Positions 8,187-42,108 of a stretch of 64,000 nucleotides of DNA are shown piece after piece. Position 1 is the stretch's first letter. Each line of letters opens with the position of its first letter. Source of the stretch: Streptomyces sp. NBC_00459 (GTDB lineage: Bacteria > Actinomycetota > Actinomycetes > Streptomycetales > Streptomycetaceae); NCBI RefSeq assembly GCF_036013955.1, contig NZ_CP107903.1:8866001-8930000 (forward strand), written 5' to 3'. A program made the position numbers and the translations under genes. Below the pieces are notes generated by a model. It was not told the origin of the DNA and searched no databases. It worked only from the letters and a program-made list of their open reading frames with translations.

Positions 8187-8405
8187 TCAACTGTCGTACG
8201 CGGAGGTGACGTACACGGTGCGTGGCGGCAGGTACTCGACGACCATGACCACCGTCCCCCGCTCGATGCGCTCCTGGGTCGCGGAGGCGTACGCCAGGAA
8301 GTGCTCGGCGCCGCCGCGCACCCGGACGATCACCTCGCCGACCAGCCCCGGCCCGATCGTGCCCGTCACCCGCCCCATCAAGCCGACCATCGCCGCGTCG
8401 TCCAT
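8187..8405 (-). CDS. NfeD-like small OB-fold protein
   Basis: A 72-residue protein that looks like the isolated C-terminal OB-fold of NfeD: LMGRVTGTIGPGLVGEVIVRVRGG, followed by a run of beta strands (ERIERGTVVMVVEYLPPRTVYVTSA). NfeD proteins are partners of flotillin/SPFH proteins, and this gene sits just upstream of the flotillin gene in the same orientation. ATG 8405 is taken as start; a GTG two codons earlier is equally possible. It has no membrane segment, so it would have to associate with the flotillin from the cytosol. The assignment rests on short sequence similarity plus context. Confidence 0.7.
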   Translation of the reverse strand: MDDAAMVGLMGRVTGTIGPGLVGEVIVRVRGGAEHFLAYASATQERIERGTVVMVVEYLPPRTVYVTSAYDS

Positions 8406-8605
8406 GGTCACAGCGTACGGGCCCAAGCCCCCTTGTGCCGCCGCCGAGTCGACGACCGGTTCGAGCGGCGGCCGACGGCGTGTTCCCCATAGTGATTTCA
8501 CAGCTTCGCTACCGCACGGCAACGGCTGACGGAGCGGTGCGGTCCGAGATGTCGAATGCACCGCGTCCGGGCGCAAGTTCACAGGTCCGGAGCGTGTCCG
8601 AAGTA

Positions 8606-12669: not shown

Positions 12670-13641
12670 GTGAACGTCTCATTCGCCGTCTGGACGCTGA
12701 CGGTCGTCGGCCTGTGCGTCCTCGTCGCCGTCGACTTCTTCATCGGCCGCAAACCCCACGACGTGTCCCTGAAGGAGGCCGGCACCTGGACCGTGGTGTG
12801 GGTCGTCCTCGCCTGTCTGTTCGGGCTCGGGCTCGCGATCTACGGCGGATCCAAGCCCACCGGTGAGTTCTTCGCCGGGTACATCACCGAGAAGTCGCTG
12901 AGCGTCGACAACCTCTTCGTCTTCGTCCTGATCATGGGCAAGTTCGCGGTGCCCTCGCAGTACCAGCAGCGGGTGCTGATGGTCGGCGTCCTGGTCGCCC
13001 TGGTGCTGCGAGCCGGGTTCATCGCGGCGGGCGCGGCGATCATCTCCACGTTCTCGTGGGTCTTCTACATCTTCGGCGCCTTCCTCATCTGGACCGCCTG
13101 GAAACTGGTCCAGGACGCCAAGAAGGGCTCGCACGAGGAAGAGTACGAGGAGAACAAGCTCCTCAAAATGGCCGAGAAGCGATTCGGCGTCGCGGACCGG
13201 TACCACGGCACCAAGCTGTTCATCGTGGAGAACGGCAAGCGGATCATGACGCCGATGATGGTCGTCATGCTCGCGATCGGCTCCACGGACGTGCTGTTCG
13301 CGCTCGACTCCATCCCCGCCATCTACGGGCTGACCCAGGACCCGTACATCGTCTTCACCGCCAACGCCTTCGCCCTGATGGGCCTGCGCCAGCTGTACTT
13401 CCTCATCGGCGGTCTGCTGAAGAAGCTGGTCCACCTCAGCTACGGCCTGTCGATCATCCTCGGCTTCATCGGTGTGAAACTCGTCCTGCACGCGCTGCAC
13501 GAGTCCGGCGTCCACGTCCCGGAGATCTCCATCCCCTTCTCGCTCGGCTTCATCGTCCTTGTACTGGCCGTCACGACCGTGACGAGTCTGCGGGCCTCGA
13601 AGAAGCAGGAGGAGGCCGAGGCCGCCCAGCCGCAGGCTTGA
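12670..13641 (+). CDS. TerC/Alx-family integral membrane protein
   Basis: A 323-residue polytopic protein with seven to nine hydrophobic segments. Family motifs are clear: SLSVDNLFVFVLIMGKF (acidic pair in a membrane helix), FLIWTAWKLV and the paired GSTDVLFALDSIPAIYGLTQDP / FTANAFALMGLRQLYFL. TerC proteins are linked to metal (manganese) export, tellurite resistance and loading of metal onto exported proteins. The GTG at 12670 has GGAG close upstream (12661-12664). The 257-bp upstream region was inspected for a yybP-ykoY manganese riboswitch, which often precedes terC genes, and none was recognised. Confidence 0.92.
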   Translation: MNVSFAVWTLTVVGLCVLVAVDFFIGRKPHDVSLKEAGTWTVVWVVLACLFGLGLAIYGGSKPTGEFFAGYITEKSLSVDNLFVFVLIMGKFAVPSQYQQRVLMVGVLVALVLRAGFIAAGAAIISTFSWVFYIFGAFLIWTAWKLVQDAKKGSHEEEYEENKLLKMAEKRFGVADRYHGTKLFIVENGKRIMTPMMVVMLAIGSTDVLFALDSIPAIYGLTQDPYIVFTANAFALMGLRQLYFLIGGLLKKLVHLSYGLSIILGFIGVKLVLHALHESGVHVPEISIPFSLGFIVLVLAVTTVTSLRASKKQEEAEAAQPQA

Positions 13642-24935: not shown

Positions 24936-25670
24936 TCAGGTGCCGGTGGCGGCTTTCGTCGGCGCTCGGTAGGCGAGGGCGTCGGCGGAGCGCAGGTGAT
25001 CTCTCAGCCCCTGCTCGGTGCTGCTCACATGCAGCAGAGCGGCGGCCTGGCTGAGGGAGGCGTCACGGGTGGACAACGCCCGGTAGATCGCCTCGTGCTC
25101 GGCGAGGGTGCGTCCCGCGGCCTGGGCGTCCACCAGGCCACGCCAGATACGGGCGCGCAGCGTGCGGCCGGAGATGGCCTCCAGAAGGGTGAGCAACGTG
25201 TCGTTGCCCGTCGCCGAGACGACGGCCCGGTGGAAGGCCGCGTCGTGGGCATTGAGCCGTTCGACGTCGTCGCGGGCCTCGCGCATGGCGTCGAGATGGC
25301 CCTTGACCTCGGCGAGCTGCTCGTCGGAGATCCGGGTGGCGGCCAGCGCGGTGGCCATCGGTTCGAGGAGCCGGCGTACCTCCATGAGGTCCTGCAGGGC
25401 GGCCGAGTCCCCCTGGAGCAGTTCCACCGCCCCGCCGAGGCCCTCGAACAGCAACCGGGGCTCCAGGCTGGTCACATACGTGCCGTCGCCTCGGCGGACC
25501 TCCAGGATCCGCGCGACGGCGAGGGCCTTGACCGCCTCGCGGGCGAGGTTGCGGGACAGACCGAGCTGGGCGGCCAGTTCCGGTTCCGGCGGGAGCTTCG
25601 ATCCCGGTGGCAGGGCGCCGGTGCGGATCAGCTCACGGATCTGCTCGATGGCCTTGTCCGTCAGTGACAA
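24936..25670 (-). CDS. GntR-family (FadR/FCD subfamily) transcriptional regulator
   Basis: A 244-residue regulator. N-terminal winged helix: AIEQIRELIRTGALPPGSKLPPEPELAAQLGLSRNLAREAVKALAVARILEVRRGDGTYV; C-terminal FCD ligand domain with the all-helical, metal-binding pattern (EVRRLLEPMATALAA, LNAHDAAFHRAVVSATGN, EHEAIYRAL). FCD regulators usually sense small organic or sugar acids. The start is a TTG at 25668-25670, chosen because AAGGAG stands 8 nt upstream. It is the last gene of the minus-strand sugar-acid block and the likely repressor of that operon. Confidence 0.9.
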   Translation of the reverse strand: MSLTDKAIEQIRELIRTGALPPGSKLPPEPELAAQLGLSRNLAREAVKALAVARILEVRRGDGTYVTSLEPRLLFEGLGGAVELLQGDSAALQDLMEVRRLLEPMATALAATRISDEQLAEVKGHLDAMREARDDVERLNAHDAAFHRAVVSATGNDTLLTLLEAISGRTLRARIWRGLVDAQAAGRTLAEHEAIYRALSTRDASLSQAAALLHVSSTEQGLRDHLRSADALAYRAPTKAATGT

Positions 25671-25699
25671 CGCGAACTCCTTCCATGACCGCTGTCCGC

Positions 25700-26029
25700 G
25701 GGCACGTCCGACCTGATCAGTTCCTGGGCACGAAGATCGTCCCAGAGACCTTCGGGGATGTGCCGACGGCGGAGTTCCACGTACCGTGCCACTTGCTCGG
25801 GGCTCCGCATGCCGAGGGTGACGTCGATGATACTGGGACGGCCGTACGGGAAGGCCGTCGCGGCGGCGGGGAGGGCGGTGCCGTGGGCGGTGCGGACGTC
25901 CGCGATCGTCCGGGGGCGGGTGATCGGGGCGGCTCCCCGACGCTTCTCGGAGAGGCCCAGGCCCAGGTGCGGTGCCGTGTCGTAGTACCGGATGCCGGCG
26001 TCCCGGGCCACGTCGACGGTGCCCGTGAT
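25700..26029 (-). pseudogene. Aldo/keto reductase remnant (L-fucose-dehydrogenase type), internal deletion
   Basis: The frame joins the N-terminal part of an aldo/keto reductase (TVDVARDAGIRYYDTAPHLG then GLSEKRRGAA, normally residues about 30-60) directly to the C-terminal part (TIADVRTAHGTALPAAATAF, then SIIDVTLGMRSPEQVARYVE and LWDDLRAQELIRSDVP, normally after residue 230). The central 170-180 residues with the catalytic Lys/His and most of the NADPH site are missing, and there is no normal start. The C-terminal pattern is that of the D-threo-aldose 1-dehydrogenase / L-fucose dehydrogenase branch. It lies between the kinase and the GntR gene in an operon otherwise fit for L-fucose oxidation. 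Confidence 0.8.
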
Positions 26030-26089
26030 CTTTCGGTGTCGCGCGATGAGGTCTCCTTGGCGGTGAGGGCCGGGGACGCTGGCCGGGCT

Positions 26090-27127
26090 TCAGCGTCTGA
26101 CCGCTGCCGAGCCGCCCGCGATGAGCGCTTCGACTTCGGCGAGGGTGGCCATGGAGACGTCGCCGGGCGTGGTCATGGTGAGGGCGCCGTGGGCGGTGCC
26201 GTAGGCGAGGGCGTGTTCGAGGGAGGCGCCGGTGAGCAGTCCGTAGATGAGGCCGGCGGCGAAGGCGTCGCCGGAGCCGATGCGGTCCAGGATGTGCAGA
26301 CCTGGCATCCGCGGCCCCGGGACGAAGCCCGTTTCGGCGGACCACGCGGCCGACGACCAGTCGTTGACCCCGGCGGAGGGTACTTCGCGCAGGGTCGTGG
26401 CCAGGACCTTGGCCTGGGGCACGAGGCCGGCCGCGGCGGAGAGCGCGTCGGGTACCTCGTCCGCTGCTGTGTGTGTCGCGCCGGGATGCTCTCCGGTCAG
26501 GGCGAGGGCTCCGACGACGACGTCGGCGTGGCCGGCGAGTCGTAGGTCGGTTTCGCGGGCTCGTTGTGGGCCGCCCCGGTCGGCCCAGAGGCTGGGGCGG
26601 TAGTTGGGGTCGTAGGAGACGGTGACGCCGTGGCGGCGGGCGGTGGTCATGGCCTCCTCGGCGACGTCGGCGGTGCTGTCGGAGAGGCCGGCGAAGATGC
26701 CGCCGGTGTGGAACCAGCGGGGGCCGGTGGCGAAGAGGGTGTCCCAGTCGACGTCTCCCTTCCCGAGTTGCGAGACGGCGGTGTGGGCGCGGTCGCTGAC
26801 GCCGAGGGCGCCGCGAATGCCGTAGCCGCGCTCGACGAAGTTGAGGCCGTTGCGGGTGGTGCGGCCGATGCCGTCGTCGGGTGTCCAGCGGATGTGGGCG
26901 GTGTCGACGCCGCCCTGGAGGATCAGGTCCTCGACGAGCCGGCCCACCGCGTTGTCGGTGAGGGCGGTGGCGATGGCGGTGCGCAGTCCGAAGCAGCGGC
27001 GCAGTCCGCGGGCGACGTTGTATTCGCCGCCGCCTTCCCACACCTGGAAGGTGCGTGCGGTGCGGATGCGGCCTTCGCCCGGGTCGAGGCGGAGCATCAC
27101 CTCGCCGAGTGCGATCACGTCGGTCAT
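26090..27127 (-). CDS. kdgK: PfkB-family sugar kinase (2-keto-3-deoxygluconate kinase type)
   Basis: A 345-residue ribokinase-fold enzyme. MTDVIALGEVMLRLDP and WEGGGEYNVARGLRR are the N-terminal substrate-binding elements, SYDPNYRPSLW is the KdgK-like middle block and DRIGSGDAFAAGLIYGLL carries the catalytic Asp and anion hole. KDG kinases phosphorylate 2-keto-3-deoxy sugar acids at the terminal hydroxyl. The ATG overlaps the stop of the aldolase gene by 4 nt, so kinase and aldolase form a coupled pair as in hexuronate catabolism. If the operon substrate is a 6-deoxy sugar, the terminal hydroxyl is absent, so the kinase probably serves another acid. Confidence 0.88.
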   Translation of the reverse strand: MTDVIALGEVMLRLDPGEGRIRTARTFQVWEGGGEYNVARGLRRCFGLRTAIATALTDNAVGRLVEDLILQGGVDTAHIRWTPDDGIGRTTRNGLNFVERGYGIRGALGVSDRAHTAVSQLGKGDVDWDTLFATGPRWFHTGGIFAGLSDSTADVAEEAMTTARRHGVTVSYDPNYRPSLWADRGGPQRARETDLRLAGHADVVVGALALTGEHPGATHTAADEVPDALSAAAGLVPQAKVLATTLREVPSAGVNDWSSAAWSAETGFVPGPRMPGLHILDRIGSGDAFAAGLIYGLLTGASLEHALAYGTAHGALTMTTPGDVSMATLAEVEALIAGGSAAVRR

Positions 27128-27756
27128 GGCGTGCTCCTGTCCACGGCTTCGGCGGTGAGGCGGCGGATGGCCGTGTAGTCGCCGTGGGCGAGATGGGTGC
27201 GGGTGGCCATCCAGCTGCCGCCGACGGCGAGCACCGCCGGTTCGGGGAGATAGGCGGTCAGGAGTTCGGCGTCGATACCGCCGGTCGGCACGAAGCGTGC
27301 CTGCGGGAAGGGCGCGCTGAGGGCCCGCAGGGTGGCCAGGCCGCCCAGGGCTTCGGCGGGGAACAGCTTCACCGTGTCGAGACCGGCTCGCAGAGCCCGC
27401 ATCAACTCGGTCGCCGTCGCGATTCCAGGAACGACGGGCACACCCAACTCCCCGCATTTCGCTACGACTTGCTCGTCGTAGCCGGGGGAGACGATGAATC
27501 GGGCGCCGGCTGCGACGGCGCGTTCTGCCTGTTCGGGGGTGAGGACGGTGCCTGCGCCGACCGTCAGGCCGCCGTGGGCGGCCATCGTCTTGAGTGCCTG
27601 TTCGGCGTCGGGGGTGCGGAAGGTGACTTCGGCACAGGTGGCGCCGCCCGCCGTCAGGGCGTCGGCCAGCGCACCGGCCGTCGCTGCGGACGGGATGGTG
27701 AGGACCGGCACGATTCGGGCGCCTGCCAGGAGCGAAGCCAGACCGGTGCCGCTCAT
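27124..27756 (-). CDS. eda: KDPG/KHG aldolase family protein
   Basis: A 210-residue class I aldolase that cleaves 2-keto-3-deoxy-6-phosphogluconate-like acids to pyruvate plus an aldehyde. Catalytic Glu43 lies in EVTFRTPDAEQAL and the Schiff-base Lys130 in DTVKLFPAE; GAGTVLTPEQ and FIVSPGYD complete the active site. Both ends overlap neighbours by 4 nt (upstream SDR, downstream kinase). Together with the kinase it makes the bottom of an Entner-Doudoroff-type route. Confidence 0.92.
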   Translation of the reverse strand: MSGTGLASLLAGARIVPVLTIPSAATAGALADALTAGGATCAEVTFRTPDAEQALKTMAAHGGLTVGAGTVLTPEQAERAVAAGARFIVSPGYDEQVVAKCGELGVPVVPGIATATELMRALRAGLDTVKLFPAEALGGLATLRALSAPFPQARFVPTGGIDAELLTAYLPEPAVLAVGGSWMATRTHLAHGDYTAIRRLTAEAVDRSTP

Positions 27757-28514
27757 CGGCCCAGCCATCCGCCGTCTACGGGCAGGGTGATGCCGTGGAC
27801 GTAGGTGGCGGCGTCGGAGGCGAGGAAGACGGTGGCGCCCGCGAGGTCGTCGGCGTCGCCCCAGCGGCCGGCGGGGATGCGGTCGAGGATGGCCCGGCTG
27901 CGTGCGGGGTCGTCCTGGAGGGCTTGGGTGTTGTCGGTGGCGATGTAACCGGGGGCGACGGCGTTGACGTTGACGCCGTGCGGGGCCCATTCGTTGGCGA
28001 GGGCCTTGGTCAGGCCGGTGATGCCGTGCTTGGCCACTGTGTAGCCGGGGACGGTGATGCCGCCCTGGAAGCTGAGCAGCGACGCCGTGAAAATGACCTT
28101 GCCCCGGCCTCTGGCCACCATGGCCGCTCCCACCGCGCGGGTGAGGGTGAACTGGGCGTTGAGGTTCACCTGGAGGACCAACTCCCAGTCCGCGTCGGTG
28201 TGTTCGGCGGCCGGTGCGCGACGGATGGTGCCCGCGTTGTTCACGAGGATGTCCACGGGCCGTTCCCGCTCCGCGAGGTCGGCGCCCAGAGCCCGTACGG
28301 CTTCGGGATCGGCGAGGTCGGCGCGGATGGCTTCGAAGGCGCGGCCGGCGGCGGTGACGTCCTTCTCCACCGCGCTGCCGGACTCCTCCAGGTGGGCGCT
28401 GACGCCGATGACGTCCGCGCCGGCTTCGGCGAGTGCGCGCGCCATGGCCCGGCCGATGCCGCGCCGGGCGCCGGTGACGACCGCGAGCCTCCCGGTGAGA
28501 TCGAACATGGTCAT
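27753..28514 (-). CDS. SDR dehydrogenase, KduD / 2-keto-3-deoxy-sugar-acid dehydrogenase type
   Basis: A 253-residue classical short-chain dehydrogenase: TGARRGIGRAMA cofactor loop, NNAGTIRR, catalytic Ser/Tyr/Lys in ASLLSFQGGITVPGYTVAKHG, and APGYIATDNT. The LSFQGGI-x-VP-x-Y block is characteristic of KduD (2-dehydro-3-deoxy-D-gluconate 5-dehydrogenase) and of related enzymes that oxidise 2-keto-3-deoxy-L-fuconate or -rhamnonate at C4. The ATG at 28514 overlaps the preceding stop; a second ATG two codons later is also possible. In this operon either role fits: oxidation of a 6-deoxy keto acid for the FAH hydrolase at 52977, or reduction of a diketo acid to KDG for the kinase/aldolase pair. 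Confidence 0.85.
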   Translation of the reverse strand: MTMFDLTGRLAVVTGARRGIGRAMARALAEAGADVIGVSAHLEESGSAVEKDVTAAGRAFEAIRADLADPEAVRALGADLAERERPVDILVNNAGTIRRAPAAEHTDADWELVLQVNLNAQFTLTRAVGAAMVARGRGKVIFTASLLSFQGGITVPGYTVAKHGITGLTKALANEWAPHGVNVNAVAPGYIATDNTQALQDDPARSRAILDRIPAGRWGDADDLAGATVFLASDAATYVHGITLPVDGGWLGR

Positions 28515-29554
28515 ACGGCGGCTCCCTGGGTGTCGTCGGTGCAGTCGATGAGGATCTTCATCACGTCGCCGCCGCCCTCCAGCGCCTCGAACGCCGAGGG
28601 CGCCTCGGTGAGCGGGACGACCTTGCTGATCAGCCGGTCGGCGGGGATCGTGCCGTCGGCCACCAGGGTCACGGCCTTCTCGAAGTCGGTGCGGTCGTAC
28701 AGGCGGGCGCCCACGAGGGTGAGTTCGCGCCAGAAGAAGCGGTGGAGGTTGATCTCACGGGGCCGGGGGTGGATGGCCACCAGGCACAGCCGGCCCCGCA
28801 CCCCCAGCACCTCCACCGCCGTGTCCACACCGGCCGCGGCGCCGGACACCTCGAACGCGACGTCCGCGCCGGCGTCGCCGGTCCAGTCGCGGACCAGGGC
28901 GGGCACGTCGGTGTCGGCCGGGTCCCAGGTGGCCAGTCCCGACTCCTCGGCCAGCAGCCGTCGGTGGGCGCTGAGCTCCACCACCCGGACCTCGGCTCCG
29001 GCGGCGCGTGCGACGAGGGCGATGAGGATCCCGACGGGTCCGCCACCGACCACGACGACCTTCTCGCCCTCGGCGACGGCGGCACGGCCGACATCGTGCA
29101 CGGCGACCGCTGTGGGCTCGACCAGCGCCGCCCGGTCCAGCGGAAGGAATTCGGGCAGCCGGACCAGGGTGGAGGCGGGCACCGTCCAGCGTTGTTGCAT
29201 GGCACCGGGGGAGTCGATGCCGATGAAGTCGAGGTGCTGGCAGATGTGCTGATGGCCGGCGTTGCAGGCGGGACAGGTGTCGTCCCAGCGCAGCGGCATC
29301 ACGGTGACCGCGTCCCCGGGCGCCCAGCCCTCCACGCCGGGGCCGACGCGGACCACGCGGCCGGACATCTCATGTCCGAGGACGGCGGGTGTGCGGACCC
29401 GGGTGTCCATGTCGCCGTGGAAGATGTGCAGGTCGGTGCCGCAGATACCGACGAAGGCGGGGGCCAGTTCCACTTGGCCGGGTCCGGGCTCGACGGTGTC
29501 GACGGGAGAGGTGTCGAGAGCTCGGGCGGCCAGGTAACGCACGGCGAGTGTCAT
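28511..29554 (-). CDS. Zinc-containing alcohol/polyol dehydrogenase
   Basis: A 347-residue medium-chain dehydrogenase. Catalytic zinc ligands are in GICGTDLHIFHGD and GHEMSGRV; NAD loop is VVVVGGGPVGILIALVARAAG. The structural-zinc loop is DDTCPACNAGHQHIC, with Asp in place of the first of the usual four Cys. Such enzymes oxidise a secondary or anomeric sugar hydroxyl. Because the aldo/keto reductase of the operon is broken, this enzyme is the best intact candidate for the first oxidation of the free sugar. Overlaps both neighbours by 4 nt. Confidence 0.87.
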   Translation of the reverse strand: MTLAVRYLAARALDTSPVDTVEPGPGQVELAPAFVGICGTDLHIFHGDMDTRVRTPAVLGHEMSGRVVRVGPGVEGWAPGDAVTVMPLRWDDTCPACNAGHQHICQHLDFIGIDSPGAMQQRWTVPASTLVRLPEFLPLDRAALVEPTAVAVHDVGRAAVAEGEKVVVVGGGPVGILIALVARAAGAEVRVVELSAHRRLLAEESGLATWDPADTDVPALVRDWTGDAGADVAFEVSGAAAGVDTAVEVLGVRGRLCLVAIHPRPREINLHRFFWRELTLVGARLYDRTDFEKAVTLVADGTIPADRLISKVVPLTEAPSAFEALEGGGDVMKILIDCTDDTQGAAV

Positions 29555-29988
29555 CGCGGGGTCAGGGTCCTTTCAGCGCGGACGCCGATCGTCAGCAGCA
29601 GGTTGGCGTAGGTACGGGTGTCGGCGGTGACGAGCGCCAGCGCCAGGTCGGGGGAGCGGGCGGCGTCGTAGAACTGGAAGCGGCCGAGTGTGTCGACCGG
29701 GAGGGGAGTCAGACGGGCGCGGTACTCGGCGATGGCCGGCGGTTCCGGTTCGCCCGGGGGCGGCACCATCACATGGGCGGACTCGACGGGTATCGCCCGC
29801 AGCAGGACGTCCAGCACGGTGGTGACGTCCAACAGGCCGGGGGCCAGGTTGAGATGGACGGTCCGGGCGCGTTCCCCGGTCGCGGTGCTCGCCGGGTAGT
29901 GGCCGTCGGCGAGCAGGACGCGGGCGCCGTGGCCGGCTCCGGCCAGCGCTTCCAGTATTCCGGGGTGCAGCAGGTCGGTCAGGAGCAC
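29551..29988 (-). CDS. RbsD/FucU-family sugar mutarotase
   Basis: A 145-residue pyranose mutarotase that interconverts anomers of a freshly imported sugar. Family features are GHGARVLLADGHYPAS near the N-terminus with the catalytic His, and RFQFYDAARSPDLALALVTADTRTYANLLLTIG at the C-terminus; the R-x-x-F-Y-x-x-A element favours the FucU (L-fucose) branch over RbsD (ribose). The GTG start at 29988 has GGAGG about 9 nt upstream. It lies between the lactonase and dehydrogenase genes, which suits feeding the correct anomer to a sugar dehydrogenase. Confidence 0.88.
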   Translation of the reverse strand: MLLTDLLHPGILEALAGAGHGARVLLADGHYPASTATGERARTVHLNLAPGLLDVTTVLDVLLRAIPVESAHVMVPPPGEPEPPAIAEYRARLTPLPVDTLGRFQFYDAARSPDLALALVTADTRTYANLLLTIGVRAERTLTPR

Positions 29989-30006: not shown

Positions 30007-30897
30007 TCAAAGAGGCGTCAGGGAAAGGGAGTTCAGGTGGTAGAAAGCGGTCGCGGTGTCGGCGAGGATCGCCGACGTCTCGGCGGCGGAGCAGCCGACG
30101 AGCAGTTCCTCGACGGCGGCGGCCCAGCGGTTCCAGCCGCCCGCGAGGACACAGACCGGCCAGTCGGAACCGAACATCAGCCGGTCGGAGCCGAAGGCGG
30201 ACAGCAGCACGTCCCACACCGGGCGGATGCCGGCAGTCGTCCAGTTCCGCCGGTCGGCCTCCGTGACCAGGCCCGACACCTTGCAGCGCACCTGAGGGTG
30301 CGCGGCCAGCCTCCGCAACTGCCTTTCCCAGTTGCCCAGTTCACCCCGGACGATGGGCGGCTTGCCCGCGTGGTCGAGGACGATCGGCAGATCGGGGAAG
30401 CGTTCCGCGAGGTGGACCGCCTGGTCGAACCGGTGGCTGCGGATCAGGACGTCGTACGCCAGTCCGCGCTCGCCCACCGCCCGCAACCCCCTCTCCACGG
30501 AAGGCCGTTGCAGCCACGCCGGGTCCGATTCGCCCTGTACGAGGTGGCGCAGGGCGCGGAGGTACGGGCCGCCGGGCCCGGCGAGCAGGTCGTCGAGCGT
30601 GTCCCCGGCGGCCGGGGAGGTGAGGTCCACCCAGCCGACGACCGCGCCGATCAGCGGGTCGGCGCCGGCCAGGGCGAGCAGTTCCCGTGTCTCGGACACG
30701 GAGGCCACGCACTGGACGACCACCGTGCTCGTCGGCTCCCGTCCGGCGATCGGCCGGGTCGCCGCCGAGCGCAGGTCGGCCGCGCCGAAGGAGCGGCGGA
30801 CGGGCTCGTGACCGGGCTCGTCCAGCCAGGGCTGCGGTCGGCGGTCCAGGTCCCACAGGTGATGGTGGGCGTCCACCAGACGCCGGCTGTCAGACAC
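30007..30897 (-). CDS. Amidohydrolase-fold sugar lactonase (L-fuconolactonase type)
   Basis: A 296-residue amidohydrolase_2 TIM barrel: DAHHHLWD metal motif at residues 9-16, [11 protein letters not shown] and [13 protein letters not shown] near the C-terminus. This branch hydrolyses sugar lactones, notably L-fucono-1,5-lactone or L-rhamnono-lactone, to the open acids. The GTG at 30897 overlaps the fuconate dehydratase stop by 8 nt. With the dehydratase directly upstream, L-fuconolactonase is the most likely activity. Confidence 0.87.
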
Positions 30898-32224
30898 GGG
30901 AGGCCCAGACCGGCCCGTCCGGATACGTGTACTCCTTGAGGGAGTCCTGGTGCATCTGCGCGCTCAGCCCGGGAAGGGCGGGAGCGAGATAGTGGCCGTC
31001 GGTGATGCGCACCGGGTCGACGAAGTGTTCGTGCAGGTGGTCGACGTACTCGATGACGCGGTCCTCAAGGGTGGCGGAGACGGCGATGTAGTCGAACATC
31101 GACAGGTGCTGGACCATCTCGCACAGGCCGACCCCGCCGGCGTGCGGGCAGACGGGCACGCCGAACTTCGCGGCGAGCAGCAGGATCGCGATGTTCTCGT
31201 TGACGCCGCCGACCCGGGCGGAGTCGATCTGCACGATGTCCACCGCACCGGCCTGGAGCAGCTGCTTGAAGACGACCCGGTTGGCGATGTGCTCGCCGGT
31301 GGCGACCTTGATGGGGCTGAGGGCCTTGCGGACGGCGGCGTGGCCGAGGATGTCGTCGGGGGAGGTGGGCTCCTCGATCCAGTACGGGTCGTAGGGGGCC
31401 AGTTCGCGCATCCAGTCGATCGCGGGCTGGACGTCCCATCTCTGGTTGGCGTCCACGGCGATGCGAATGCCGTCCCCGACCGCCTCACGGGCGGCGCGCA
31501 TCCGCCGTACGTCGTCCTCCAGGGAGGCGCCGACCTTCAGCTTGATCTGGGTGAAGCCGTCCGCGACGGCCTCGCGGGCGAGGCGGGCCAGTTTCTCGTC
31601 GGAGTAGCCGAGCCAGCCGGGGGTGGTGGTGTAGGCGGGGTAACCGCGCTCCAGCAGCCGGGCGATGCGCTCCTCGCGGCCCGGTTCGGCGCGGCGCAGG
31701 ATCTCCAGCGCCTCTTCGGGGGTGAGGGCGTCGCTGAGCCAGCGGAAGTCGACCTGGGCGACCAGTTCCTCCGACGGCATCTCGCCGAGGAAGCGCCAGA
31801 CGGGCTTGCCGGCGCGCTTGGCGGCGAGGTCCCAGGCCGCGTTGACGACCGCGCCGGTCGCCATGTGGATGGCGCCCTTCTCCGGGCCCAGCCAGCGCAG
31901 TTGGGGATCGTGCACCAGGGAACGGGAGAACGCGCCGAGGTCGGCGCAGACCTCGGCGACCGACAGGCCCACCACGTGCGGGGCGAGGGCTGCGATGGCC
32001 GCGGCCTGGACGTCGTTGCCGCGGCCGGTGGTGAAGGCCAGGGCGTGGCCCTCCAGGCCGTCGGCGGCGTCGGTGCGCAGCACGACGTAGGCGGCGGAGT
32101 AGTCGGGTTCGGGGTTCATCGCGTCCGAGCCGTCCAGGTGCTCGGACGTCGGGAAGCGCACGTCGAGCACGTCCAGGGCGATGATGCGGGCAGATGCCGA
32201 TACGGGGGACTCGGTCGCGGACAT
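30890..32224 (-). CDS. L-fuconate dehydratase (enolase superfamily)
   Basis: A 444-residue mandelate-racemase-group enolase enzyme that dehydrates L-fuconate to 2-keto-3-deoxy-L-fuconate. The full-length pattern matches L-fuconate dehydratase: [22 protein letters not shown] at the start (only part quoted), [11 protein letters not shown] with the K-x-K acid/base pair at 228-230, metal ligands D258 (DANQRW), E284 (IEEPTSPDD) and E311 (ATGEHIANR), and H361 in [12 protein letters not shown]. Length (about 440) and the long 20s-loop region are diagnostic versus other sugar-acid dehydratases. The ATG has AGGAG 5 nt upstream. First enzyme gene after the transporter. Confidence 0.93.
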
Positions 32225-32329: not shown

Positions 32330-33373
32330 TCAGTCCTGGACCTTGCCGCCCGTGATGCGCGAGATCATCAGCGCGACCAGGATGATCAGGCCGTTGAGGG
32401 CGCCGATCCACTGCGCGGGCACGCCGCCCAGGGTGAGCACGTTCTGGATCATGAAGAGCAGCAGGATGCCGCTGAAGGCCCCGAACATGGTGCCCTTGCC
32501 GCCGTTGAGGCTGATCCCGCCGATGACGGCGGCGGCGAAGACGGTGAAGATGTAGCCGTTGCCCTGAGCGGAGGCCACCGAGGCCAGCCGTCCGGACAGC
32601 AGCAGTCCGGCGAGGGCGGCCAGCAGGCTGCCGGTGACCAGGACGATCCACAGCACCCGGTCGGTACGGATCCCGGCCGCCTTCGCGGCGTCGACGTTGC
32701 CGCCGATGGCGTACAGGGAGCGGCCGAAGCTGGTCCAGCCGAGGACCACGACGGCCACCGCGAACAGTGCCAGGCAGAGCCAGATGGAGGCGGGCATCCC
32801 GAACCACTGTGCCGTGCCCAGGTAGAGCATCGACTCCGGCAGCTGGAAGAAGGTCTGGCCGCCCGAGATGCCGGTCAGGACACCGCGCAGGACGATCAGC
32901 ATGCCGAGGGTGACGATGAAGCCGTTGAGGCCGAAGCGGATGATCAGCAGCGCGTTGACCACGCCGATCAGCGCGCCCACGGCGAGCGTGACCGGGATCG
33001 CCCAGGCGCCGGGAAGGAGCCCCAGTCCGTGTCCCGCGCCGGTCGGCACCACCAGCCAGGCGGCCACACCGGGCGCGAGGCCCATGGTCGATTCCAGGGA
33101 GAGGTCCATCTTCTTGACGATCAGGATCATCGTCTGGGCGAGGACCAGCAGCGCGATCTCGGACATGGTCTGCAGTACGTTGATCAGATTGTCGGCCTGA
33201 AGGAAGACAGGGCTGACGATCTGGCCGACGATCGCGATCACCACGATGGCGGGGACGAGCGCGAGGTCGCGCAGCCTGGCCACCGGTATCCGGCCGCCGA
33301 ACAGCGCGGTCCGCCCGGTCCCGGACTCGGTGGCCTTGGGCGCGGGTGTCTCGGCGAGGACGGTTTCAGGCAT
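32330..33373 (-). CDS. CUT2 sugar ABC transporter permease (RbsC family)
   Basis: A 347-residue membrane protein with eight to ten hydrophobic segments and the BPD_transp_2 pattern (ISEIALLVLAQTMILIVKKMDLSLESTMGL-type block, FGLNGFIVTLGMLIVLRGV, AAVIGGISLNGGKGTMFGAFSGILLL). It forms the channel of a ribose/fucose-type importer. Its ATG overlaps the ATPase stop by 8 nt. The 105 bp between this stop and the dehydratase start hold no terminator, so transporter and enzymes are probably one transcript. Confidence 0.93.
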   Translation of the reverse strand: MPETVLAETPAPKATESGTGRTALFGGRIPVARLRDLALVPAIVVIAIVGQIVSPVFLQADNLINVLQTMSEIALLVLAQTMILIVKKMDLSLESTMGLAPGVAAWLVVPTGAGHGLGLLPGAWAIPVTLAVGALIGVVNALLIIRFGLNGFIVTLGMLIVLRGVLTGISGGQTFFQLPESMLYLGTAQWFGMPASIWLCLALFAVAVVVLGWTSFGRSLYAIGGNVDAAKAAGIRTDRVLWIVLVTGSLLAALAGLLLSGRLASVASAQGNGYIFTVFAAAVIGGISLNGGKGTMFGAFSGILLLFMIQNVLTLGGVPAQWIGALNGLIILVALMISRITGGKVQD

Positions 33374-34928
33374 GGAGGTCCACTCCTTCCATCGCGGCCA
33401 CGAGGTCGTGGTCGTGCCAGCCGCGGGTGATCTCTGAGGTCACTCGGCCCTGGAACATCACCAGGACCCGGTCGCACATGCGCAGGTCGTCGAGCTCGTC
33501 GGAGGCGATGAGCACACCGGTGCCGGTCCGAGCGGTCTCCTCGACCTTGTCGAGGAGGAACTCCTTGGAGCGCACGTCCACACCCGCCGTCGGGTTGATC
33601 AGCACCAGCAGCCGAGGGGCGTCGGCCAGGGCGCGGGCCATGACGACCTTCTGCTGGTTGCCCCCGGACAGGGAGGAGACGGGCAGCTCGGGACCGGGTG
33701 TCTTGATCGCCAGGTTCTCGATCATGCCCTCGGCGAGCCGGTCCCGGGTGCGGCTGCTGAGGAACCCGTTCCTGCCGATCCGGTGGGGCACGGACAGGGT
33801 GGCGTTGTCCGCGATCGACATGTCGGGTACGAAGCCCTGGTGGTGGCGGTCCTGCGGGACGAATCCCGCGCCCGCGGCGAGCGCGGCGGGGACACTGCCC
33901 GGCCGGGGACGCTGACCGGCGATGGCGACCTGGCCGCCGTCCGCCGCCCTGAGTCCCACGACGGTCTCGGCGACCTCCGTGCGACCGCTGCCGGCCGCCC
34001 CCGCGAGCCCGACCATCTCGCCGGCGCCCACCCGGAAGGTGACGCCGTCGTAGGTGTCGCCGCTCAGTTCGCTGACGCTCAGAGCCGCGGTCGCCTCGGC
34101 GGCCAGGGAACCGGCCCGCTCCTCGCGACGGTCGGTCGCTGCCTCGCCGGTCATGGCGGCGACGAGTTCGGTTCGGGGGAGTTCGGTCACCGGCGCGGTC
34201 AGGATGTGCCGGGCGTCCCGGAACACCGTCACCATGTCGCAGATCTCGTAGACCTCCTGGAGGTGGTGACTGATGAACAGGAAGGTCACGCCCTGGCGTT
34301 GCAGGTCGCGGATGCGGTCGAAGAGCCGGTTGATCGCCGCGCCGTCGAGCTGGGCGGTCGGCTCGTCGAGAATGATGAACCGGGCGCCGAAGGACAACGC
34401 GCGGGCGATCTCGACGAACTGCCGCTGCTCCACGTCCAGTTCACCGGCCAGGGTCTGCGGATCCACGTCCACCGACCAGGCCGACAGCAGTTCCCGCGCA
34501 CGACGCCGCACACCCCGCCAGGTGATGAGCCGGCCCCGGCCGTGCTCGTGCCGGTTCAGGAAGAGGTTCTCGGCGACGGTCAGGGTGGGGATGATCGTCG
34601 ACTTCTGGTAGACACAGGCCACCCGTCTGCGCCAGGCGTCCCGGTCCGCGGGCCGGGGGGCCGGGACGCCGCCGAAGGCGACCGTGCCCTCGTCCGGGGC
34701 CTGAAGCCCGGTGAGGACGGACACCAGGGTCGACTTGCCGGCTCCGTTGCGACCGACGAGTGCATGTGTCTCGCCGGGCCTGATGGTGATCCGGGCGCCG
34801 TTGAGCGCCACCGTCGGACCGAATCGTTTGACTATGCCCGTCGCCTCGACGACGGGCGGGCCCGCCGGGGCCCGGCCGTCGTCCGCCGGGGCGGGCGCGG
34901 GGGTGACTGCTCGCTCCCCGTCGCTCAT
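33366..34928 (-). CDS. CUT2 sugar ABC transporter ATP-binding protein (tandem ATPase domains)
   Basis: A 520-residue RbsA/MglA-type protein with two ABC domains. Domain 1 is complete: Walker A GRNGAGKST, signature-like LDVEQRQFVEIARAL, Walker B FIILDEPTAQLD, H-loop FISHH. Domain 2 has the degenerate Walker A common in the family (GAAGSGRTE) and LSGGNQQKVVMARAL, but its Walker B reads LLVLINPTAGVD, replacing the usual Asp-Glu with Ile-Asn, so site 2 is probably not hydrolytic. ATG 34928 (MSDGER) is chosen with AAGGCGG upstream; ATG 34955 is an alternative. Confidence 0.9.
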   Translation of the reverse strand: MSDGERAVTPAPAPADDGRAPAGPPVVEATGIVKRFGPTVALNGARITIRPGETHALVGRNGAGKSTLVSVLTGLQAPDEGTVAFGGVPAPRPADRDAWRRRVACVYQKSTIIPTLTVAENLFLNRHEHGRGRLITWRGVRRRARELLSAWSVDVDPQTLAGELDVEQRQFVEIARALSFGARFIILDEPTAQLDGAAINRLFDRIRDLQRQGVTFLFISHHLQEVYEICDMVTVFRDARHILTAPVTELPRTELVAAMTGEAATDRREERAGSLAAEATAALSVSELSGDTYDGVTFRVGAGEMVGLAGAAGSGRTEVAETVVGLRAADGGQVAIAGQRPRPGSVPAALAAGAGFVPQDRHHQGFVPDMSIADNATLSVPHRIGRNGFLSSRTRDRLAEGMIENLAIKTPGPELPVSSLSGGNQQKVVMARALADAPRLLVLINPTAGVDVRSKEFLLDKVEETARTGTGVLIASDELDDLRMCDRVLVMFQGRVTSEITRGWHDHDLVAAMEGVDLHA

Positions 34929-34975
34929 CTCAACCGCCTTGTGTCCGTGTGTCATTGGGGCTGTCTGGCAGGGGT

Positions 34976-36040
34976 TCAGCCGAGGTTGTTGCCCCACAGG
35001 GACTTGTCGTCGCTCTTCAGGCTTGCCACGCCGCCGTAGGTACCGCCGTCGGCGGTGACCAGCGGGGCGGAGAGCTGGTCCTCCAGCAGGCCGTCACGGA
35101 CCTGGATGATGGTGCTGTCGTGGTCCGTCCTGCCGGGCTTGAACGTCTTCCCGTCGATGGCGGCCTTCAGGTAGTACAGGGCGTACTTGGCGTAGAGGTC
35201 GGCCGGCTGGGAGACGGTGGCGTCGATCCTGCCCTCGGCGATGGACCTGAGTTCCTCGGGGATGCCGTCGTTGGAGACGACGAACACGTGCTTCTTGTCC
35301 GAGGGTTCGACCAGCAGGCCCTTCTGCTTGAGGACCTGGAGGGTGCCGGCCAGGGCGAAACTGGACTGCATGTAGACGCCCTTGATGTCCGGGTTGGCCG
35401 TCAGGTCCGTCTGGAGCTTCTGCGCGGCGACGGCACCGTCCCAGTTGGTGGCCTCGCCGAACACCTTGATGTCCGGGTAGTTCTTCTTCATGCAGTCGTT
35501 GAACGCCTCGGTGCGGTCACGGCCGTTGATGGAGTCCAGGCCGCCCTGGAGCATGACGACCTTGCCCTTGCCGCCGAGCTTGGTGCCCAGGAACTGGCAT
35601 GCCTTCTCGCCGTACGCCCGGTTGTCGGCGCGGACCACCATGAAGACCTTGCCGCTGTCGGGGCGGGTGTCGACGGTGACGACCGGGATCTTCTTCGCCT
35701 CCAGCTGCGCCAGCGTCGGCGCGATGGCGGCGGTGTCCTGCGGGGCCATCGCCAGGCCCTTGACGCCCTGGCTGATGAACGTCTGCGCGTTGGCGGTCAG
35801 CTTGGCGACGTCGTTCTGCGAGTTGGTGGTCTTGAGGGAGAGGCCGAGTTCCTTCGCGTACTCCGGCGTGTACTTGATGTACGAGTTCCAGAAGTCGGTG
35901 TCGGAGCGCGGGTAGTCGACGCCGATCAGCGGTGTGCCGTCACTCGACGCGCCGGTGCTGCCGGAGCCGCCGCAGGCGGTCAGCAGAGCCAGCGCGGAGA
36001 GGACGGAGGCGGCGGAACAGAGGGCGGTTCTGACTCTCAT
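34976..36040 (-). CDS. CUT2 sugar ABC transporter substrate-binding lipoprotein
   Basis: A 354-residue periplasmic-binding-protein type 1 (Peripla_BP_4) lipoprotein. The signal peptide ends in the lipobox LLTAC with Cys23, followed by a Gly/Ser linker. The binding fold shows GVDYPRSDTDFWNSYIKY, GVKGLAMAPQDTAAIAPTL and VVTVDTRPDSGKVF, the usual pattern for monosaccharide binders. It is first in the 11-kb minus-strand block and is preceded by the AT-rich gap that must contain the promoter. The substrate is inferred from downstream genes to be L-fucose or a similar 6-deoxyhexose. Confidence 0.92.
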   Translation of the reverse strand: MRVRTALCSAASVLSALALLTACGGSGSTGASSDGTPLIGVDYPRSDTDFWNSYIKYTPEYAKELGLSLKTTNSQNDVAKLTANAQTFISQGVKGLAMAPQDTAAIAPTLAQLEAKKIPVVTVDTRPDSGKVFMVVRADNRAYGEKACQFLGTKLGGKGKVVMLQGGLDSINGRDRTEAFNDCMKKNYPDIKVFGEATNWDGAVAAQKLQTDLTANPDIKGVYMQSSFALAGTLQVLKQKGLLVEPSDKKHVFVVSNDGIPEELRSIAEGRIDATVSQPADLYAKYALYYLKAAIDGKTFKPGRTDHDSTIIQVRDGLLEDQLSAPLVTADGGTYGGVASLKSDDKSLWGNNLG

Positions 36041-36450
36041 CGGTACTTCCTCACGCTGGTCCCGTAGCGGGAGATGTTTCGGATGGGCGACAACCGTGTG
36101 TCACAGCTCGGAGAGATGGGATGTATATATAGGCGAGCAGTTGAAGGCCTGTCCAGTCTCTCGCGCAATGTGCCCGTTAAATACGGTTTTGCGTGTGAGC
36201 TCGGCACTCAAGGTGGCAGGTTCAAGGTCAAATCCATCCCATCAATCGCGAAGGATTCATGAGGCGATTCAGCCATGCCGCGGCGGCGAGACATACCATG
36301 TCTTCAGAGTGTTCAAGCATGATGAAATATGAAGAAAGAGACAAAACCCCTGGTCAAGGAGTGCTTTTCATCCCTGCGTAACCGTTGACATGCCCGGGAC
36401 GCATGGACGACCTTCGTCCGTAACTACCGGCACCGCATCAGGGATGTCCC
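36041..36450. other. AT-rich divergent regulatory gap between the importer operon and the fucosidase gene
   Basis: 410 bp without a gene. Bases 36301-36360 contain 24 G/C of 60 (40%), far below the surroundings. TATATATA lies at 36124-36131 and TTGACA at 36385-36390. No clear paired -35/-10 or palindromic GntR operator was found by eye, but the region must contain the promoters of both divergent transcripts. Short ORFs here have no recognisable product. Confidence 0.6.
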
Positions 36451-38682
36451 ATGTCGAGTTCGATCAACAGGCGCCACTTCCTCGCGAGCGCCACCTTCGT
36501 GGCCGCGGCAACGGTCGCCGACGGCCTGTTCGGCGCTGGTGGCGCGCAGGCGGCACCCAGCACGTACACACCCGACTGGAACTCGGTCGACCAGCACCCG
36601 CCGGCTCCGGAGTGGTTCCAGGACGCCAAGTTCGGCATCTACTTCCACTGGGGTGTCTTCAGCGTTCCCGCGTACGACAACGAGTGGTACCCGCGCAGCA
36701 TGTACTCGGCCGGCAGCAACGCCAACACGCACCACATCGCGACCTACGGACAGCCGTCGGCCTGGCCGTACCACAACTTCATCAACGGAGCGAAGGACCT
36801 GGCGGGCAACACCGTCCAGTTCGCCCCGAAGCTGAAGTCGGCGGGCGGCAACTTCGACCCCGACGAGTGGGTGCAGCTGTTCGTCGACGCGGGCGCGAAG
36901 TTCGCCGGGCCGGTCGCCGAGCACCACGACGGTTTCTCGATGTGGGACAGCCAGGTCAACGAGTGGAACTCGGTCGCCAAGGGGCCGAAGCTCGACCTGC
37001 TGGGCCTGTTCACCACGGCCGTCCGAAGCCGGGGCCTCAAGCTGCTGGTCGCCATGCACCACGCGTACAACTACAACGGCTTCTACGAGTTCGCGCCCGC
37101 GCAGACGGACACCAGTCTGAAGAAGCTCTACGGGCAGCTCGGCGCGGCGGCGGAGAACCAGCTCTGGTACGACAAGCTCAAGGAGGTCATCGACCGGGCC
37201 GAGCCCGACATCCTCTGGCAGGACTTCAAGCTGGACGCGGTCGACGAGACGCAGCGCCTGAAGTTCCTGTCGTACTACTACAACCGGGCCAACAGCTGGG
37301 GCCGTGAGGTCGTCGCCACGTACAAGGACGGCATGAACGGCAAGGGCGAGGTCTTCGACTACGAGCGGGGCGGGCCGGGCGACCTCACCACGCCCTACTG
37401 GCTGACCGACGACAGCATCTCCAGCTCCAGCTGGTGCTACACGCAGGGCATCGGCTACTACAGCACCCGGCAGATGCTGCACTCGTTCCTCGACCGGGTC
37501 AGCAAGAACGGCAACGTGCTGCTGAACATCGCACCCATGGCCGACGGCACCATCCCCCAGGCCCAGAAGGACATCCTGCTCGGCATCGGTGACTACCTGA
37601 AGCGCTTCGGCGAGTCGGTGTACTCGACCCGCGCGTGGAGCGTGTACGGCGAGGGTCCGACGAAGATGGGCGGCGGCTCCTTCACCAACCCGACCGCCGG
37701 GACGGCCCAGGACATCCGCTTCACCCGGAACAAGACGAACAACGTCCTGTACGCCACCGTCCTTGGCTGGCCCGGCAGTTCCCTGACGATCACGACCCTC
37801 GGCTCGGGCCGGATCAACCTCTCGTCCCTGACATCGGTCGAACTGCTCGACTCGACCGCGGGCAGCTACATCAACCTGCCGACACCCGTGCAGAACGCCT
37901 CCGGGCTGACGGTGTCCCTGCCGTCCTCGGCGCCCCACACCGCCAACGCCTACGTCCTGAAGCTCACCTTCTCCGACGCCATTCCCAGCCTGCGGCCGCG
38001 GACCGGAGCCGTCGCCTTCGGTGACGTCGACTACTCAGGTACCGGCGCCGTACTCGCCGTCGGCGACTACACCGCGAACCAGCTGCAGCAGGCCGGACTG
38101 GGCGCACTCAGCCTCTCCTCGCTCTGGCTGGCCCCCGGCTACCGGCTCGTCGGCTACTCGGGCGACAACTTCACCGGCACCTCGTGGACCTTCACCGCAG
38201 ACAATCCCGACCTCAGAGTCACGGGCAACAACGACCAGGTCACCTCGCTGAGGGTCCAGTTCAACCCGGCGACGTACTTCAGGATCGGCAACATCACCAA
38301 CGGCCTCGCGCTGGACGGCGGCGGCAGTACCACCTTCGGGGCCAACCTCAAGCAGTGGACATGGGACGGTTCTCCCAACCTTCAGTGGCAGGCGGTCGAC
38401 GTCGGCAACGGCTACTACAGGCTGGTCAACCGGACCACCGGAATGGTCGCGGACGGCTGGGGTGCCACGTCCGACGGTGCCGTCGCCCGGCAGGCGGCCT
38501 GGAACGGCGGAAACAACCAGCAGTGGACGATCACCCACCGGGGTGCCGGCCAGTACTCGATAGCCAACCGCACCACCGGCCTCGTCCTCGACGGCGGCGG
38601 CAACGTGGCCTCGGGCTCCGTCACCAAACAGTGGACGTACGGCAGCAGCACCAACCTGCTGTGGACCTTCACGGCCCAGTAG
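36451..38682 (+). CDS. Secreted alpha-L-fucosidase (GH29) with crystallin-like and ricin-type modules
   Basis: A 743-residue exported enzyme that removes terminal alpha-L-fucose. Tat signal: SINRRHFLASATF ... GAQAAP. GH29 domain (about 40-430): KFGIYFHWGVFSVPAY, YEHHDGF-like AEHHDGFSMWDS, nucleophile Asp258 in DILWQDFK, and SKNGNVLLNIAPMADG. A beta-sandwich region follows, then a beta/gamma-crystallin-like unit (about 518-604: DVDYSGTGAVLAVGDYTANQ, GYRLVGYSGDNFTGTSWTF), then a ricin-type beta-trefoil (605-743) with NLQWQ, NNQQW and NLLWTF. Divergent from the importer that would take up released fucose. Confidence 0.93.
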   Translation: MSSSINRRHFLASATFVAAATVADGLFGAGGAQAAPSTYTPDWNSVDQHPPAPEWFQDAKFGIYFHWGVFSVPAYDNEWYPRSMYSAGSNANTHHIATYGQPSAWPYHNFINGAKDLAGNTVQFAPKLKSAGGNFDPDEWVQLFVDAGAKFAGPVAEHHDGFSMWDSQVNEWNSVAKGPKLDLLGLFTTAVRSRGLKLLVAMHHAYNYNGFYEFAPAQTDTSLKKLYGQLGAAAENQLWYDKLKEVIDRAEPDILWQDFKLDAVDETQRLKFLSYYYNRANSWGREVVATYKDGMNGKGEVFDYERGGPGDLTTPYWLTDDSISSSSWCYTQGIGYYSTRQMLHSFLDRVSKNGNVLLNIAPMADGTIPQAQKDILLGIGDYLKRFGESVYSTRAWSVYGEGPTKMGGGSFTNPTAGTAQDIRFTRNKTNNVLYATVLGWPGSSLTITTLGSGRINLSSLTSVELLDSTAGSYINLPTPVQNASGLTVSLPSSAPHTANAYVLKLTFSDAIPSLRPRTGAVAFGDVDYSGTGAVLAVGDYTANQLQQAGLGALSLSSLWLAPGYRLVGYSGDNFTGTSWTFTADNPDLRVTGNNDQVTSLRVQFNPATYFRIGNITNGLALDGGGSTTFGANLKQWTWDGSPNLQWQAVDVGNGYYRLVNRTTGMVADGWGATSDGAVARQAAWNGGNNQQWTITHRGAGQYSIANRTTGLVLDGGGNVASGSVTKQWTYGSSTNLLWTFTAQ

Positions 38683-41800: not shown

Positions 41801-42108
41801 TCGGACGCGACCTTGCCGGACTTCCACACATCGGCGGACCCCGGTGCGAGTCCGACCTGGATCTCGTACGCCTTCTGCGAGGTCCCCCGCCGGTCCGACG
41901 TGGACTGCCAGCCGAAGACGGGGTCCTCACCGCCGATGCCCAGGGGGTTCACCCGGCCGTTGGTGGTCGGAGTCGTCACGGAGATCCCCGCGTCCTGGAC
42001 CGACGAGGCAGGAGACGCGGACGCGGGCACGACCGCTGTGCCTCCGACCACGGCGAACACGAGAAAACCTCTGAGAAGTACGTACAGCAGCGAGCGTTTA
42101 CGGAGCAT
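38824..42108 (-). CDS. Secreted alpha-L-rhamnosidase (GH78)
   Basis: A 1094-residue exported rhamnosidase. A Sec-type signal (KRSLLYVLLRGFLVFAVVGG ... ASAS) is followed by a fibronectin-like N-domain, an inserted CBM67-like region (about 170-320, WDGAQWITRPEA to VVTAADGG), the Bac_rhamnosid N and barrel domains and a C-terminal sandwich. Catalytic region: PARDERLGWTGDISLFAPT carries the general acid Glu, and TTMWERWNSIMPNGDFG the catalytic base region. Size and domain order are like the characterised S. avermitilis GH78 enzyme. It lies 87 bp downstream of a second GH78 gene in the same direction. Confidence 0.93.
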   Translation of the reverse strand: MLRKRSLLYVLLRGFLVFAVVGGTAVVPASASPASSVQDAGISVTTPTTNGRVNPLGIGGEDPVFGWQSTSDRRGTSQKAYEIQVGLAPGSADVWKSGKVASDRQTGVRYGGPALKPGTRYYWRVRAWDDRNAASRWSVPAHFETGLLDSGDWDGAQWITRPEAASELDKWTDYVATVEFKIDSAALGMFLRASDTTNGYMWQFNVTGPTPMLRLHKQVKGNYSVLQEVDLAPFGFTDASLLADRHTVRFDVTGSTIRTTLDGKLVNTFTDTTFSKGYVGFRTHGCCGEQGTVYDAVVTAADGGTLLDTDFAADQNPFTGGAIVGSALVVSGTTDALAEPSVRTLPLLRKGFATKTGKKIASARVYASALGVYALEINGKPVGDQKLAPGWTNYHKRIQSQTYDATKLLARGDNAIGASLANGWWAGKVGIGWSHQYGDTPALVAKMRITYTDGSVQWIATDGSWKAAEGPYTRADLQDGETYDARLKPSGWSRPGFDDSAWEPVASVESRTALLVPQSDEPVRATQVLKARELTEPTTGTYVYDLGQNMVGVSRLTLTGSAGQTVRIRYAEVLNKNGTLYTDNFRTARVTDRYTFAKAGTVTYEPTFTQHGFRYIEITGVSGPPALSAVKGVVWGSDLPSTGTLKTSDAMLDQLVSNISWSQRGNFLSIPTDTPARDERLGWTGDISLFAPTANYLVDTRAFLSHWMADVRNSQYTNGDLPAVVPTPQGQFGDSGVGWSDVMITVPYSVWRSYDDTRILRENYPAMRKFFQFVRDSAGPDLLEPGRTTFFTNDWLHLNDPTEQGILGTAYYAENARMMAEMAKALGDDAAASEYGKLSADIRTAFTTAYVAADGTVKGNSQTGYAMALGMNLVSDPALVEKVGAKFVAKLALTDYHLRTGFIGTPLLLPALSRIGRDDLAYRMLLHKDYPSWGYEVASGATTMWERWNSIMPNGDFGPVDMNSFNHYAYGAVGDWMFQNIGGLSALEPGYKRSRIAPVPGGDLTEGSGSLKTVYGLLSSKWSTRDGTLDLKVTVPVNTVAEVHVPSAPRRAVTEGGRPAETAKGVRFLRMENGAAVFEVGSGSYRFDVHTVRG

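Follow-up and report, generated by a model that had tools for sequence, protein, structure and literature searches.

The 3' end of a decayed aldo/keto reductase (AKR) gene in Streptomyces sp. NBC_00459 putatively carries the promoter of the FadR/GntR-type regulator gene that follows it, an element which appears to survive loss of the AKR gene or of the whole operon; we place the probability of this reading at roughly 65%. The window, by which we mean the entire 64,000-nucleotide stretch of DNA analysed, contains the features listed in Table 1. We infer that a TATCAT hexamer in the 3' coding region of the AKR gene acts as the -10 element of the regulator promoter. Upon loss of the AKR gene or operon the coding sequence would decay, whereas the hexamer would tend to stay, together with a second block that lies 40-60 bp ahead of the start of the regulator, in our proposal because the regulator is still needed, partly for a fucosidase gene that now lies beside it. 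The window would represent an intermediate in this process, with the AKR gone, the other operon genes constrained and the hexamer intact.

Table 1. Features of the operon region, in positions of the window.
Feature	Position	Strand	Remarks
FadR/GntR-type regulator	24936..25670	-	TTG start
AKR pseudogene	25661..26026	-	N block 25928-26014, junction 25907-25927, C block 25697-25906
M2 CTGATCAGGTCGGACGTG	25703..25720	-	conserved block
M1 GTATCATCGACGTCA	25819..25833	-	conserved block; TATCAT hexamer 25827-25832, proposed -10 of regulator promoter
PfkB-type kinase, 2-keto-3-deoxy sugar acid kinase-like	26090..27127	-
KDPG/KHG aldolase (Eda)	27124..27756	-	221.7 bits, cut-off 156.05
KduD-like SDR	27753..28514	-	332.9 bits, cut-off 338.85
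Zinc-dependent dehydrogenase	28511..29554	-
FucU-like mutarotase	29551..29988	-
Fuconolactonase-like amidohydrolase	30007..30897	-
Fuconate-dehydratase-like enolase superfamily enzyme	30890..32224	-
Sugar ABC importer	32330..36040	-	permease 32330-33373, ATPase up to 34997, binding protein 34976-36040 (subunit names presumed)
Palindrome GACATGGTATGTC, candidate operator	36290..36302	-	between binding protein and fucosidase
Alpha-L-fucosidase-like gene	36451..38682	+	presumably GH29 plus lectin

The AKR is represented in the window by an AKR-like open frame of 116 aa (25661-26011, minus strand, GTG start), and its two ends can be matched to AKR sequence by codon as an N block of 29 codons (26014-25928) and a C block of 70 codons (25906-25697). 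A plasmid BLAST search with positions 25200-26600 returned ten records, one of which, from S. mirabilis NBC_01248 (NZ_CP108478.1), matched over a longer stretch, with 83% identity over 95% of the query. This plasmid locus is syntenic with the window, its flanks are about 85% identical at the nucleotide level, and its AKR, which follows the kinase and precedes the regulator, is intact at 333 aa. Alignment to this intact copy confirms the truncation read by the first-pass annotation, which had described two AKR ends joined in one frame with the core missing: positions 12707-13247 of the S. mirabilis locus (541 bp, about 180 codons of AKR core) are absent from the remnant, and both ends stay in one frame across this internal loss. 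The start and first ~35 codons are gone as well, and the 139 bp from the N block to the kinase stop in S. mirabilis (13370-13508) are reduced to 63 bp in the window. The span of 25661-26090 originally given to the remnant holds as AKR frame to 26011, but positions 26027-26089 show no alignment with the AKR of S. mirabilis and translation from 26090 is out of frame, the true frame being that of the 26011 open reading frame. The earlier assignment to the fucose dehydrogenase type stands, here widened to fucose/L-galactose dehydrogenases in view of the intact syntenic orthologue, whose five best PDB matches are all L-galactose dehydrogenases (8scc, 9w6y, 7ezi, 7smi and 7lh6).

Several further observations bear on the state of the remnant. 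The Pfam Aldo_ket_red model (PF00248) gives 148.2 bits with the intact orthologue; with the remnant it gives 12.6 bits, below the cut-off of 24, and covers residues 16-42 only. The catalytic tetrad Asp-Tyr-Lys-His is invariant in 38 of 38 intact orthologues; the remnant keeps Asp, has Leu in place of Tyr and has lost Lys and His by deletion, so that three of the four are missing. Values of pN/pS are raised in both surviving blocks, to 0.40 in the N block and 0.46 in the C block, versus 0.15 and 0.35 in intact AKRs. A kinase-based genome scan yielded 80 loci. Thirteen (L040-L051 and L053) bear Streptomyces titles, and an AKR of near full length follows the kinase in 12 of these 13 as well as in the plasmid locus (L039). 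S. fuscichromogenes (L050) has lost the AKR and also the aldolase, and a Nocardia-titled locus (L052) has neither the AKR nor this regulator. The window AKR is thus a true pseudogene, disrupted where its syntenic orthologues are intact, and judged from its sequence it cannot be a working AKR enzyme. That the assembly simply dropped ~540 bp deserves hardly any credence. The genome is known from one assembly, but that assembly is a single contig with a completeness of 100, and an error of this kind accounts poorly for two separate losses (start region and core), for the Tyr-to-Leu change and raised pN/pS in the surviving blocks, or for the likewise missing intact AKR in S. fuscichromogenes, which belongs to the same regulator clade (support 0.97).

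Every operon gene other than the AKR is an open frame in the window, which upholds the earlier statement that the rest of the operon is intact. We compared pN/pS for nine genes (binding protein, dehydratase, lactonase, mutarotase, zinc dehydrogenase, SDR, aldolase, kinase and regulator) between the window and 26-30 complete operons. The window values of 0.18-0.43 lie near the 0.16-0.36 seen among complete operons, being slightly higher in eight of the nine genes and lower in the aldolase. Since the remnant has raised pN/pS and these nine genes remain near complete-operon values, the AKR stands out as clearly freed from constraint, and mild relaxation of the other operon genes is possible. Scores against curated L-fucose families fall below the cut-offs for fuconolactonase (189 of 400) and L-fucose mutarotase (33 of 141), as does the best match of the dehydratase, to talarate/galactarate dehydratase (146 of 500); though below these cut-offs, the lactonase, mutarotase and dehydratase of the window appear to be of the right kinds. 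Positions 36041-36450 hold the promoter region of the operon, which is conserved and in complete operons carries AGACATGNNATGTCT and ACATCCCATCTCT motifs. Adjoining the fucosidase at 38824-42108 is the gene for a large protein that we presume from its sequence to be a secreted alpha-L-rhamnosidase-like enzyme.

The first oxidation step of the pathway would be supplied in trans by one of two intact paralogous AKRs. Among 25 AKR-family matches in the same genome, two are of this AKR kind, sharing 56% and 54% identity with the syntenic orthologue, and both sit in other fucose-type operons. The paralogue at 8822755 is accompanied by a regulator, binding protein, permease, SDR, lactonase and a dehydratase 72% identical to that of the window, and the one at 1069732 by an SDR, a lactonase and what we take to be a FAH-family-hydrolase-like protein. 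The first-pass annotation had instead favoured the zinc dehydrogenase as the simplest replacement, a view against which both these paralogues and the gene content of complete operons speak. Takeover of L-fucose/L-galactose oxidation by this enzyme after AKR loss is in our judgement improbable: the gene is intact in the window and its family includes polyol and sugar dehydrogenases, with D-arabinose 1-dehydrogenase (2h6e) as a distant match, but the 41 loci with full-length AKR, kinase and SDR all have a zinc dehydrogenase of full length as well, and the PDB entries that match it best are threonine, butanediol and sorbitol dehydrogenases, whose substrates are secondary alcohols. Because it coexists with the AKR in all of these complete operons, the zinc dehydrogenase probably has a pathway step of its own. 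The case also shows that a step missing from an operon should be sought elsewhere in the genome before an unrelated enzyme of the operon is credited with it. We also noted a mirror image of the window in S. dysideae (L053), where the zinc dehydrogenase (7561-8605) is cut to its ends (residues 1-53 and 262-347) and the AKR is of full length.

The combination of zinc dehydrogenase, KduD-like SDR, keto-deoxy-acid kinase and Eda suggests a non-deoxy substrate such as L-galactose rather than L-fucose alone. The 6-deoxy acid derived from L-fucose has no 6-hydroxyl for phosphorylation, and for this reason an L-galactose-type substrate, with inversion at C5 by the zinc dehydrogenase and SDR, would fit the gene set better. 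The C5-inversion route is drawn from work on anhydrogalactose catabolism. Of this, formation of 2-keto-3-deoxygalactonate in S. coelicolor is the one point supported by PMC9706016. Three loci (L256, L257 and L260) lack a full kinase and aldolase yet have the AKR and zinc dehydrogenase, which weakens the substrate assignment; the SDR is whole in L256 and L257 and in two pieces in L260, and L257 and L260 come from another genus of Streptomycetaceae.

To follow the regulator beyond the window we used its protein sequence, which had matches in 75 of 392 Streptomyces genomes (E up to 1e-70). We fetched 73 regions, leaving out matches below about 78% identity and two partial matches, and these regions, the named loci and the window gave 89 regulator copies for classification. 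AKR, kinase and SDR accompany 36 of them; two have just AKR and kinase, of which one lies at a contig end and the other has a broken SDR, two have kinase and SDR without AKR (the window and S. fuscichromogenes), and 49 have no operon directly upstream and are referred to as lone. A second sample of 394 Streptomycetaceae genomes, 35 of which had matches (E up to 1e-108), added 33 further regions, with three repeats, and 18 lone copies after L254, where the contig ends 0.65 kb upstream, was dropped. The loci L268, L270 and L247 were left out as repeats, and L232 was kept with only 1.2 kb of upstream sequence. In the regulator tree operon-less and operon-bearing copies are interleaved, giving 28 operon losses under a losses-only count, 22 changes by Fitch parsimony and at least 13 losses once weak branches are collapsed and lone siblings pooled. 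These counts were made after removal of four rows, which left 37 copies with the operon and 48 without; L227 (contig end) and L048, L202 and L045 (duplicate regulator sequence) were dropped from the tree and from the constraint, hexamer and block counts, and L269, whose class derives from a neighbouring copy, from the constraint, hexamer and block counts. Since several genomes carry both kinds of copy, some of the apparent losses of the operon may instead stem from duplication or transfer. Lone regulators are under constraint, with pN/pS of 0.164 versus 0.182, and no stop codon was found in 67 of them, L254 included, by a search that favours open frames. Six loci (L216, L223, L226, L265, L266 and L269) have two nearby regulator copies, one ending the operon and the second beyond it, and in all but L216 and L269 the second copy is divergent from a fucosidase gene.

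In the tree of regulators the window groups with S. fuscichromogenes and with two operon-less species, G264 and G323. The latter two are its nearest relatives, with regulators 97-98% identical, and in both the AKR tail at window position 25747-25749 is joined to window position 59720. This single shared 34-kb difference removes the operon and spans the fucosidase and rhamnosidase-like genes as well. Gene order in the window is the usual one, which makes a deletion in the common ancestor of G264 and G323 the simpler reading.

A short AKR tail is often left in front of the lone regulators in many Streptomyces genomes. The first-pass annotation had held that homologues of the same short length, conserved under purifying selection in many genomes, would refute its reading of a truncated gene; short tails do occur widely, but in them it is short DNA blocks that are conserved, more than the protein. 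Across the 45 of 66 lone loci that can be aligned over the hexamer (the other 21 cannot), differences from the nearest intact AKR are 0.136, 0.158 and 0.228 at codon positions 1, 2 and 3, against 0.074, 0.080 and 0.192 for 47 loci with intact AKR, so that the added changes fall on all three positions and are not concentrated at the third. We located conserved blocks by a leave-one-block-out procedure, in which each 16-nt block was hidden from the alignment and read once this had been made. In the first sample M1 reaches an identity of 0.88-0.90 at -176 to -168 before the second codon of the regulator (flanks 0.76-0.80, n=25-27) and M2 one of 0.88-0.89 at -60 to -56 (flanks 0.78, n=29-30). Just upstream of M1 identity is 0.61-0.67 in lone loci versus 0.90-0.93 in intact genes, and another raised block lies at -288 (+0.09, n=9). 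Both peaks were repeated less sharply in the 18 lone loci of the second sample, where M2 (+0.11 over flanks) and M1 (+0.08) are among the best blocks and M1 is not unique, being matched by blocks at -212 (+0.08, n=6) and -124 (+0.07, n=10).

Within M1 the TATCAT hexamer sits in Ser-Ile-Ile-Asn/Asp-Val codons (AGT ATC ATC RAC GTC) on the same strand as the regulator. Its position is unchanged in 39 of 45 lone loci over both samples, the highest count of all offsets; the next best, 29/41 and 29/42, both overlap it. The pattern TAnnnT is found in 44 of 45 lone loci versus 31 of 47 with intact AKR, the other 16 being without it (Fisher p 7e-5, a value that ignores relatedness). At this place 8 of the 47 loci with intact AKR naturally carry CGTCGT. 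Exact TATCAT is no commoner in lone than in intact loci (35/48 vs 23/35, p 0.63, again ignoring relatedness), and lone loci with no exact copy within 260 nt number 13 of 48 in the first sample and 4 of 18 in the second. In several loci the element stands nearer the regulator, at 47-120 nt rather than 171, and four of these (L212, L206, L224 and L259) keep TAnnnT where tblastn finds no AKR. This uneven survival is as expected of a promoter -10 element and unlike the effect of protein constraint alone, and points to conservation of a -10-like hexamer beyond the need of the protein, less sharply so in the second sample. A scan of synonymous sites in intact AKRs with 7-codon windows gives M1 no support, since its peaks fall elsewhere, around MLARFLRE. 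In M2 the Arg codon AGG is kept in 31 of the 37 intact genes with Arg at that place, which is a hint only. Outside the remnant the window has no match to M2 (up to 4 mismatches) and two weak ones to M1 (up to 3).

Two other explanations of these blocks have to be weighed. The tail could be a plain pseudogene and the blocks passive debris, left in place as deletions tend to stop before a regulator that is needed. Other loci do range widely in partial erosion of the operon, M1 is not the sole peak of the second sample, and the 34-kb difference in the two nearest relatives took most of the tail, including the hexamer, while the regulator was kept, which also counts against the promoter reading. 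Yet the hexamer outlasts the DNA that separates it from the regulator and comes to lie close to the regulator after internal deletions, and the operon genes of the window show no marked loss of constraint; we regard passive debris as unlikely.

Alternatively, M1 may be no -10 element: a regulator may bind there, the GntR protein itself being one candidate, or M1 may be a feature of the leader RNA. Conservation runs past the hexamer to CRACGTCACCCTCGG, and M2 is conserved too. No -35 hexamer is present at 16-18 nt, a sigma-70 scan of positions 25400-26200 was empty, and no conserved -35 was found across lone loci, which likewise counts against the promoter reading. Substitutions at the hexamer nevertheless respect TAnnnT (TATCGT, TACCAT), Rfam returned no match, and no M1 or M2 core stands before the first gene of the operon in 30 loci, 16 of which had 433 nt to examine. 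A role of this kind is a somewhat unlikely but serious competitor, and we prefer to read the hexamer as part of a promoter.

The proposed continuing need for the regulator draws on its neighbours. A fucosidase gene lies divergent within 2.5 kb of the lone regulator in 19 of 49 first-sample and 7 of 18 second-sample loci; in the window it flanks the operon on the side far from the regulator. A palindrome, GACATNNNATGTC, stands about 155-205 bp before the fucosidase in six lone loci and at the regulator itself in three others (L219, L225 and L228). The form GACATN2-4ATGTC has 16 matches in 1.21 Mb of loci, most near a fucosidase or regulator gene and two not. We infer that the regulator controls the fucosidase. 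A broader generalization can be offered only tentatively, and we would not call it probable: the tail of a catabolic gene would serve as promoter for the regulator of its own operon, so that independent losses (at least 13 in the sampled Streptomyces) would leave the regulator with a promoter-bearing stub, reused for fucosidase control, and operons whose AKR has TATCAT rather than CGTCGT at these codons would be the ones most readily lost while the regulator stays.

Among the titles and abstract openings we surveyed, which are far from a full search, we found no literature on this operon or promoter arrangement. Comparison can be made with better-known classes of genes and elements. The L-fucose/D-threo-aldose 1-dehydrogenases and L-galactose dehydrogenases (PF00248) resemble the intact syntenic orthologue, which is a full PF00248 protein, and the paralogues of the same genome likewise stand in fucose-type operons; the window copy differs in having no barrel core, no start region and only one of four catalytic residues. 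In its internal deletion, lost start and relaxed constraint the remnant is like other bacterial pseudogenes in intact operons, but differs from them in that part of it appears to be kept at the DNA level for the next gene. Intragenic promoters that drive a downstream gene are known in general, and the present case is alike in that the hexamer lies inside upstream coding sequence on the same strand as the downstream regulator. It differs in the repeated loss of the host gene, which isolates the element, and we know of no described case of this. Dozens of decaying copies of one gene thereby form a natural experiment that reveals a likely regulatory element within coding sequence, and offer a reason why gene stubs stand before orphan regulators.
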